NCBI GenBank assembly: GCA_030706405.1
Contig: JAUZOO010000010.1
Span: 124,001-188,000 of the forward strand
Direction: 5' to 3'
Source: Bacteroidota bacterium
GTDB lineage: Bacteria > Bacteroidota > Bacteroidia > Bacteroidales > JAAUTT01
DNA length: 64,000 nt
A program made the position numbers and the translations under genes. Below the pieces are notes generated by a model that saw only the letters and a list, made by a program, of their open reading frames with translations, made no database searches and was not told the DNA's origin. Numbering within the stretch: the stretch's first letter is position 1; each line of letters opens with the position of its first letter. Positions 1 through 1,966 of this stretch are shown here, one piece after another.

Positions 1-8
1 ATGGCCGG

Positions 9-386
9 ATAACTTGTGCAGGAAATTACTTAACTGACCCAAAAACTATAATCCTGCTATTGGGATTTAAGATAATTTTGAAAGAAACTCATTTCCCAAG
101 TTTGGGATTTTAGATAAATTTAAAATGAACACTTATCCCAAATAGCGAATTCGAGTTTTTTCTTTGTGGAACGATAATCCCAAATGTCGGATAAGTGTTT
201 TTTCAAAGTTTTTGTAAAATCCCAACTGGCGGATTGGGCAAAATTCATCAGAAAACCATAATCCCAAATGGCGGATAAGTGCTTTTTGTTTGTTAATCTG
301 AAATCCGACACTTGGGATAATCGATTTTTTATGCATAATGTCTTATCCCAAACGGGCAATCGGTCTATTAATATCCAGCTGGCTAT
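9..386. repeat. 42-bp periodic dyad-repeat array
   Basis: Eight units start exactly every 42 bp at 51, 93, 135, 177, 219, 261, 303 and 345; a weak ninth may start at 9, so the array may extend past the left edge. Each unit begins with a 16-bp dyad of form ATCC-N8-GGAT, for example ATCCCAAATGGCGGAT at 261, followed by about 26 bp of variable, T-rich sequence. Six of eight units keep both half-sites with at most one change (units 135 and 345 are degenerate on the right arm). The period equals four turns of B-DNA and also 14 codons. On the minus strand it reads as a 14-residue repeat ending in Trp-Asp, interrupted by stops in the two units at 51 and 93. No known repeat family is recognised. Seen directly; function unknown. 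Confidence 0.85.
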
Positions 387-688
387 AAAAACGATCCGGA
401 TTGTGTTCCCTTCAAACTAAAACATCGGCATACCCGCGAGGTTTGTCATTTCTCACCTTCACATTGTTCGTTCGTCAGAATTTGGTTAGTTTAAACGTGT
501 TAATAATTGGCATAACCTTACTGTTTTCAATAATAGTCTCCTCCGACCAATAAAGTTTAGCGAAAGATTTTACAAAAAAAATCTTTTTCCCGATAGGGTA
601 AATCCTTCTTAAGAAATCATAATAACAGAAGCAGAAATACAGATTCTGTTCAACCCCGGGATACGCATTAAACTTAAAAACTTAAGCC
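387..688. other. Intergenic region upstream of the 689 gene
   Basis: About 300 bases with no convincing ORF, RNA gene or terminator. No good TAnnTTTG promoter box was found. A short imperfect dyad (cagaaatacagattctg) lies about 50 bp before the start of the 689 gene. Nothing else stands out. Confidence 0.5.
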
Positions 689-1966
689 ATGAAAACACAT
701 AATAACATTTTCGCACTAATAGCTGCTTGCTTGATGGTGGCTCTCTTTACAGCATATTTTAATCCGGTTATGGCAGGCGACGACCAATTCTCTGTAATAC
801 GCGGAAAACTGGTTGATCAGGCAAACAAAAAACCACTGATGTTTGCCAATATCTATCTCGATAATACCGGCATCGGAACAGTATCGAACGGCGAAGGGGA
901 ATTTATTCTCAAAGTGCCCGTCGATGAGCAAAACCATCCGATAAAAGTCTCCTACATGGGGTATCGGTCGCAGTCTTTCAACTTTAACGACCTCTCCCGC
1001 GATTACAACGTTATTCCAATGGAGCTGGAGGCAATTAATATTAAAGAAGTAATTGTACGGACGAACGACCCGATTTCGCTGATACGTGGAGTTATTAAAA
1101 ATATTCCCGAAAATTATGGACGGACACCTTATGTAGGCACAGCATTTTATCGCGAATCGGCCATGCAAAACCGCCAATACGTGGGCGTTGCCGAGGCTAT
1201 CCTTTCCATTTACAAATCGGATTATGGCAACGAAATGGCCGAAGATCGTATCAAAGTATTTAAAGGTCGCAAAAGTCAGGATGTAAAACGAATGGATACG
1301 CTCGTGTTTAAACTTCAGGGAGGGCATTACGTAGCTACACTGCTTGACTTAGCCAAAAGTCCCGAAACGTTTATGCTCGAAAAATTCTTCCACGTTTACA
1401 ACTATCAACCCGTTACCACCACTAACATTGAAGGCCGCGAAACCTATGTAATCGATTTTGCTCAACGTAAAGAAATAGACGATGCTTTTTATACCGGGCG
1501 GTTATATATCGATGTAAATACACTGGCAATCAAGAAAGCAGAATTCTCTATCAGTCCGTACGGGTTAAAATTTGCCGACCAATACCTGGTAAAGAAAAGG
1601 CCGATAGGATATTCTGTTAAAACAACAAGCGGCCATTACATGGTTGATTACCGCGAAATAAACGGAAAATGGATGTTAAACCACGTGCGATACGAAGTAA
1701 AATTTAAGGTCGATAAAAAACGACTGTTTTCGTTCAGCAAAACATATACTTCAACCGTCGATTTGGCTATGACCGACAAAGATACCGTGAACGTTGCCAA
1801 ATTTAAACTCCGTGAAAGCGTAAAACCCAATGATGTATTCATCGACCATGTGAGCAGTTTTTACGACGAAGATTTTTGGGGCAGCTATAATATTATTAAA
1901 CCCGAGGAACCTATTGAAGCAGCCATTGAACGGATAGGCAAACGCCTGCAGAAATATCAGAAATAA
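689..1966 (+). CDS. Carboxypeptidase-like regulatory domain envelope protein
   Basis: A 425-aa exported protein. Residues 1-29 form a signal peptide ending VMA before GDD, with no lipobox Cys. Residues about 36-115 match the CarboxypepD_reg (PF13715) beta-sandwich pattern: IRGKLVDQANKKPLMFANIYL, then GIGTVSNGEGEF and a VSYMGY strand. The remaining 300 residues are the poorly characterised C-terminal part common in Bacteroidota proteins of this type (IRGVIKNIPENYG, ending KRLQKYQK), and have no catalytic motif that I can name. It is probably periplasmic or outer-membrane associated. It stands alone, with a strong terminator directly behind it. Function unknown; the domain assignment is solid. 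Confidence 0.85.
   Translation: MKTHNNIFALIAACLMVALFTAYFNPVMAGDDQFSVIRGKLVDQANKKPLMFANIYLDNTGIGTVSNGEGEFILKVPVDEQNHPIKVSYMGYRSQSFNFNDLSRDYNVIPMELEAINIKEVIVRTNDPISLIRGVIKNIPENYGRTPYVGTAFYRESAMQNRQYVGVAEAILSIYKSDYGNEMAEDRIKVFKGRKSQDVKRMDTLVFKLQGGHYVATLLDLAKSPETFMLEKFFHVYNYQPVTTTNIEGRETYVIDFAQRKEIDDAFYTGRLYIDVNTLAIKKAEFSISPYGLKFADQYLVKKRPIGYSVKTTSGHYMVDYREINGKWMLNHVRYEVKFKVDKKRLFSFSKTYTSTVDLAMTDKDTVNVAKFKLRESVKPNDVFIDHVSSFYDEDFWGSYNIIKPEEPIEAAIERIGKRLQKYQK

Follow-up and report, generated by a model that had tools for sequence, protein, structure and literature searches.

Several described systems have features in common with the array treated here. The parS_F site (sopC), which is bound by ParB_F (SopB), consists of a 43-bp repeat in twelve copies, with inverted repeats of 16 bp (PMC6238139). 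HipB of E. coli binds cooperatively to four operators with the sequence TATCCN8GGATA (PMC3920265). REP/BIME sequences with their RAYT partners are dispersed intergenic palindromes of which one copy is gene-linked and others are solitary. The BrickBuilt MITE of Porphyromonas gingivalis, an intergenic, multi-copy tandem repeat in the Bacteroidota, is composed of 23-bp units without spacers, and of a leader and a tail with inverted-repeat ends (PMC4596501). The array described here lies near the start of a 64-kb stretch of chromosomal DNA (the window) and belongs to a class of non-coding arrays with a period of 41 or 42 bp that point to a private, previously undescribed protein-DNA recognition system.

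The array in the window

Eight dyads follow one another at steps of exactly 42 bp with zero slips (Table 1), as an earlier note on this DNA had reported; the extent of 9-386 given there is corrected to approximately 51-360, as there is no dyad at 9. DNA to the left of the window, into which the array might have extended, adds no unit, and the array is complete within the window. The core ATCC-N8-GGAT is exact in five of the eight units (51, 177, 219, 261 and 303), with one mismatch at units 93 and 135 and two at unit 345. Dyads in the window that succeed one another every 42 bp form a chain of at most seven when one mismatch or fewer is allowed, and of eight with up to two; in 20 shuffles of the window the chain length was always 1, two dyads never being chained. 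TRF reported two copies only.

The unit is directional, with ATCCCAAnnGnCGGAT as its oriented reading. Units 51 and 303 are inverted in register, and the others, 93 apart, face the other way. Such in-register inversion (51-66 and 303-318) is not a product of simple tandem duplication. Aligned in orientation, the units match one another at 85% over the dyad columns and at 59% over those of the spacers; the spacers are thus not unique. A CRISPR-like array was rejected, the spacers being diverged copies of one another and the units inverting. Nothing seen here, where the neighbouring ORFs were read by eye, points to an origin or partition locus, an option raised earlier.

Two minus-strand ORFs overlap the array (120-359 and 133-336) in different frames, and no gene covers it. 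A coding repeat was rejected since no ORF spans the array, the frames differ and 41-bp arrays are common; the decayed tail of a repeat gene to the left, which the earlier note had entertained, is likewise contradicted by the many period-41 arrays and by the lack of such a gene there.

Table 1. Positions in the window of the array, its units and neighbouring features
Feature	Position	Strand	Basis
Extra intergenic DNA holding the array, right part of ~0.9 kb	1..590	.	Synteny comparison, boundaries approximate
Orphan array; eight dyads of 16 bp, with an exact step of 42 bp	51..360	.	Dyad search; lag 42, z 15.3 in the period test
Dyad unit 1, ATCCTGCTATTGGGAT, inverted orientation	51..66	-	Dyad search
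Dyad unit 2, TTCCCAAGTTTGGGAT, 1 mismatch to ATCCN8GGAT	93..108	.	Dyad search
Dyad unit 3, ATCCCAAATAGCGAAT, 1 mismatch	135..150	+	Dyad search
Dyad unit 4, ATCCCAAATGTCGGAT	177..192	+	Dyad search
Dyad unit 5, ATCCCAACTGGCGGAT	219..234	+	Dyad search
Dyad unit 6, ATCCCAAATGGCGGAT	261..276	+	Dyad search
Dyad unit 7, ATCCGACACTTGGGAT, inverted orientation	303..318	-	Dyad search
Dyad unit 8, ATCCCAAACGGGCAAT, 2 mismatches, end of array	345..360	+	Dyad search
Neighbouring gene, CarboxypepD_reg-like protein	689..1966	+	Pfam PF13715, E 5.7e-16

Genomic setting and the sibling array

To the left of the array the DNA leads to a tRNA-Leu gene and then to the trigger factor gene, with neither a repeat gene nor further units on the way. 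In the congeners G003 and G004 the trigger factor, tRNA-Leu and CarboxypepD_reg-like genes follow in the same order, with an intergenic region of only ~260 bp and no array. The CarboxypepD_reg-like gene is, as far as tested, outside the array system. No remnant of a DUF6261 gene was detected beside the array by tblastn (best E 0.083).

A pattern search of the whole genome (4.93 Mb), allowing one mismatch, located another array at C19:108221-108362 that has the dyad and the step of the window array, in answer to the earlier question of whether the dyad recurs at 42-bp spacing elsewhere. A blast-type comparison of the DNA within the genome did not recover this sibling. The spacers of the two arrays are homologous as well (127 bp at 68%, E 3e-5), and on this homology the window array is assigned as an orphan of the C19 family. 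The C19 array ends ~45 bp before the start codon of a DUF6261 gene (C19:108534-109292; Pfam match E 9e-26). Some conserved residues have been lost from the encoded protein (RD to RV, ET to SR), which may be decaying. Both arrays lie near tRNA genes; a link to tRNA genes was rejected, as the other DUF6261 loci checked are not so placed.

The genome carries five DUF6261 genes, and immediately upstream of every one stands an array with a period of 41 or 42, its palindrome differing from gene to gene. The statement that the array is without a gene thus stands for the window array, which is non-coding, and does not extend to the family, as arrays of the class go together with genes for DUF6261 and similar proteins. 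Same-genus genomes have neither DUF6261 nor arrays, and the array system is therefore dispensable.

Linked and orphan arrays

The scan for arrays covered 2.06 Mb of the genome (42%). It gave 24 regions that repeat at 30 to 55 bp, 21 of them at 41 or 42. One of the 21 is coding, leaving 20 non-coding arrays. Eight are directly upstream of small helical genes (five DUF6261, three others) and 12 are orphans, which occupy varied intergenic places. For all five arrays linked to DUF6261, blastn identified one or more orphan siblings (E 7e-48 to 9e-8), with homology that ends at the array edges and flanks that are not homologous. For four orphans no family partner was found within the 42% scanned.

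Orphans are also found in other genomes. In G033, TTTCGTCCCGGGACGAAA recurs at 42-bp steps next to a DUF6261 gene and again, far from it, in an orphan array, and a two-sided symmetric variant, TTTCGCCCCGGGGCGAAA, is found at two further sites, again at 42-bp steps. The Chryseobacterium genomes G413 and G845 have orphan clusters too, and one cluster, with the same dyads in a 42/142-bp layout, is apparently common to two Chryseobacterium species. The arrays had no match in phage and plasmid collections, and a phage or plasmid origin was rejected.

Association with DUF6261 across the phylum

For the 450 bp on either side of DUF6261 genes, the best lag of any repeat was determined over the range from 25 to 64 bp. 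Upstream, this lag was 41 or 42 in 43 of 49 loci, with z>6 in 36; downstream, these figures were 2 and 1 of 49. A named set of loci from Chryseobacterium, Kaistella, Epilithonimonas, Flavobacterium covae and columnare, Ancylomarina, Kordia and others likewise gave a lag of 41 or 42 upstream in 33/37 versus 1/37 downstream; the two sets partly overlap, and without duplicates they combine to 80 upstream regions. For 40 other genes, all from the window, the mean z was 1.2 and the maximum 5.3. The period test was used in place of an earlier loose two-dyad pattern, which over 393 genomes had returned many 7-bp repeats and chance coding hits. Two DUF6261 matches are located within ~8 kb of one another in Flavobacterium covae (CP067379.1, 2646849-2661481; L148, L152), one with an upstream array signal and one, a partial match, without.

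When only dyad symmetry is tracked, the main peaks fall at lags 41 and 42 and are echoed at 82/84, and there are minor peaks at 21 and 63, the latter two being attributable to a second palindrome half-way along the unit in some arrays. In G033:C4 (L289:1459-1740) and in Chryseobacterium arrays a second palindrome, e.g. TGTAAGCTTGCACA, is found 21 bp from the main one, so that these arrays present two alternating dyads every two turns. TAnnTTTG -7-like elements are concentrated 40-60 bp upstream of the start codons; a minority of the loci have promoter-like elements between the array and its gene.

Conserved geometry and private palindromes

Palindromes in the class measure 16-19 bp, with one every 41-42 bp, and are often perfect through the centre, with no loop. 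As judged from sequence comparison, they are unrelated between genes, and only layout and period are common to them: for gene pairs with a protein score ratio <0.5, none of more than 1000 array pairs reached 45 bits, although a period of 41 or 42 bp is used by most. Palindromes from different arrays include TTTCGTCCCGGGACGAAA, CTTGCCCAAGCTGGGCAAG, TTGCTGCACGATGCAGCAA and TTTCCGGTAACCCGGAAA. In 170 dyads, positions 3-9 bp from the centre are strongly paired and those further out pair at background level, although the dyads were selected on their inner 9 bp and only the types of mismatch are independent of that selection. The mismatches comprise 74 G:T and 102 A:C, a ratio of 0.73 where 0.80 is expected; lack of a G:T excess indicates symmetry of the DNA and not of an RNA hairpin.

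The class is characterized by a period of 41 or 42 bp, one palindrome per unit that is conserved above the spacers, and a sequence family that includes an array upstream of a DUF6261-type gene. The window array has the first two properties itself and the third through C19. The earlier suggestion that spacing itself is under selection gains support from the recurrence of 41/42 bp in sequence-unrelated arrays across the phylum, from the conservation of dyads above spacers and from mismatches without RNA-pairing bias. Frequent changes of spacing in relatives, which would have spoken against it, were not seen; arrays elsewhere keep their 41-42-bp steps.

DUF6261 and other array-linked proteins

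DUF6261 (Pfam PF19775) is annotated as of unknown function. Pfam comparison revealed no DNA-binding family and no ParB-type helix-turn-helix, a fold search against the PDB gave nothing at E<=0.001, and no nuclease or transposase match was found. The structural model is all-helical (pLDDT 82.5, pTM 0.53). A basic tail is present in some members only, 8/47 tails having a charge of +3 or more. As for membership of a defence system, the sole indication is a weak PADLOC match (E 0.005).

Some arrays precede helical genes that are not recognizable as DUF6261. Three of the linked arrays of this genome do so, as do three elsewhere, and the set of partners is therefore broader than one Pfam family. Homology of these proteins to DUF6261 was not detectable among those compared. 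Helical families after 41/42-bp arrays are found at L071:5216-6187, L072:2179-3165, L068:2536-3036, G000:C1:73553, C1:280571 and C7:65091, and some of the array-following helical proteins carry beta-sandwich or Fn3-like C-termini. At G299:C347, a Y1-transposase-like (RAYT) ORF, recognized by eye (L072:1005-1685), lies just before a 42-bp TCCACAGTTGTGGA array (L072:1782-2060) and a 329-aa helical gene.

Proposed function and alternative explanations

A spacing of 41-42 bp is naturally read as four helical turns, so that dimers on successive palindromes would be placed on the same side of the helix and could bind cooperatively. Palindromes on one face, a helical-protein gene next door and solitary sister arrays together suggest cooperative binding by the product of the neighbouring gene. 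On balance, the window array is probably an orphan of a phylum-wide class of cooperative protein-binding arrays, with DUF6261 as the likeliest binder and orphans as extra sites. Each array family has a palindrome that is private to it, and as a rule one copy stands immediately upstream of a gene for DUF6261 or a similar small helical protein, 5′ of the promoter where a promoter can be recognized, with the other copies solitary elsewhere in the chromosome. The product of the adjacent gene, which for the window family would be that of C19:108534-109292, is predicted to recognize its own palindrome and to coat its own array, probably regulating its own gene. The same protein may also coat the orphan arrays, including that of the window, and perhaps bridge arrays. 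A wider and more doubtful proposal is that Bacteroidota chromosomes hold dozens of private arrays, each specific for its own DUF6261-like helical protein, which would polymerize along or bridge the linked and orphan arrays and so join selected loci or silence adjacent genes; this would be a new and highly diversifying class of sequence-specific nucleoprotein system.

The main rival to a binding array is a mobile REP-like repeat, in which selfish palindromes would be copied to new intergenic sites, the DUF6261-type gene being the autonomous partner or mobilizer and the orphans non-autonomous. Linked-plus-orphan families within one genome, many copies per genome, the presence of the window array where congeners have none and the Y1-transposase-like ORF next to the G299 array would all be consistent with this. 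However, sibling arrays share neither ends nor flanks outside the arrays, DUF6261 resembles no nuclease or transposase, phage and plasmid collections hold nothing similar, and the same orphan cluster is apparently present in two Chryseobacterium species. Additionally, mobility alone leaves the fixed 41/42-bp step unexplained, and this origin is considered unlikely. The period also bears on a neutral minisatellite generated by replication slippage at palindromes. Tandem layout, sequence turnover and orphans in varied intergenic contexts could arise in this manner, yet 21 of the 24 regions of tandem type detected in 2.06 Mb repeat at 41/42 bp, and the same period occurs phylum-wide in unrelated sequences beside one gene family, with dyads conserved over spacers. 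A minisatellite is largely refuted by the period and retains only a slight probability.

Location immediately 5′ of genes, and palindromes that could fold, raise the possibility that the arrays are transcribed and that the palindromes work as hairpins, either within a leader or within a non-coding RNA. This is very improbable given that the dyad mismatches have no G-U excess, the palindromes are often loopless, promoter-like elements stand between array and gene, and units are inverted within arrays; Rfam returned only a sub-threshold chance match to a miRNA (101-224, minus strand; 26.4 bits versus a gathering score of 119). An operator array for another dimeric regulator, e.g. a HipB-like Cro-family repressor, is suggested by the core ATCC-N8-GGAT, which is that of the E. 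coli HipB operator, by the cooperative binding of HipB to its four operators, and by the genome's own hipBA-like locus, where three dyads ~40 bp apart demonstrate that multi-turn operator spacing occurs. That locus (L250:17483-17706, G000:C15:37483-37706; HipA N-terminal domain, E 7e-26) has two TATACC...GGTATA dyads and one ACACC...GGTG dyad, and is likely a toxin-antitoxin operator array, of use for comparison within the genome. A HipB-like regulator of the window array is nevertheless a poor prospect: hip genes are absent beside the array and its C19 sibling, the dyads of the genome's own hip-like locus differ, and other arrays of the class have unrelated palindromes.

With binding by the neighbouring gene product as the preferred reading, DUF6261, an unstudied family found across the Bacteroidota, gains a testable partner in the DNA array just upstream. 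Constant four-turn spacing combined with freely changing, two-fold symmetric sequence would amount to a naturally kept record of how proteins and their DNA sites have co-evolved, one genome containing many private specificities. The class would also account for many unannotated tandem repeats of Bacteroidota genomes and, if binding is demonstrated, could be a source of orthogonal DNA-binding modules.

Comparison with known systems

No description of these arrays or of DUF6261, which a single unrelated paper mentions, was found in the open literature searched, subscription papers lying outside its scope, and the class is provisionally regarded as new. BrickBuilt is likewise intergenic, tandemly repeated and multi-copy in the Bacteroidota, but common flanking terminal inverted repeats were not found here, sibling arrays being without homology outside the array. 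REP/BIME sequences with RAYT are alike in their dispersed intergenic palindromes and in the pairing of one gene-linked copy with solitary ones; they differ from the strict 41/42-bp arrays, whose partner is DUF6261 and not a Y1 transposase, a RAYT-like ORF being near one G299 array only. The HipB operator is the nearest motif, with the same core, several sites and cooperative binding of dimers (PMC3920265). However, HipB operators number four and belong to hipBA only, whereas the window array has eight strict 42-bp units, no hip genes and related arrays with other palindromes, and its neighbours are the trigger factor, tRNA-Leu and CarboxypepD_reg protein genes rather than a hipBA promoter. The nearest geometry is that of parS_F. 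In contrast to ParABS, the partner here is not of the ParB helix-turn-helix type, DUF6261 having neither such a match in Pfam nor a confident PDB fold. Unlike parS_F, the arrays are chromosomal, number 20 in 42% of one genome, carry private palindromes and are located 5′ of a gene for a helical protein.
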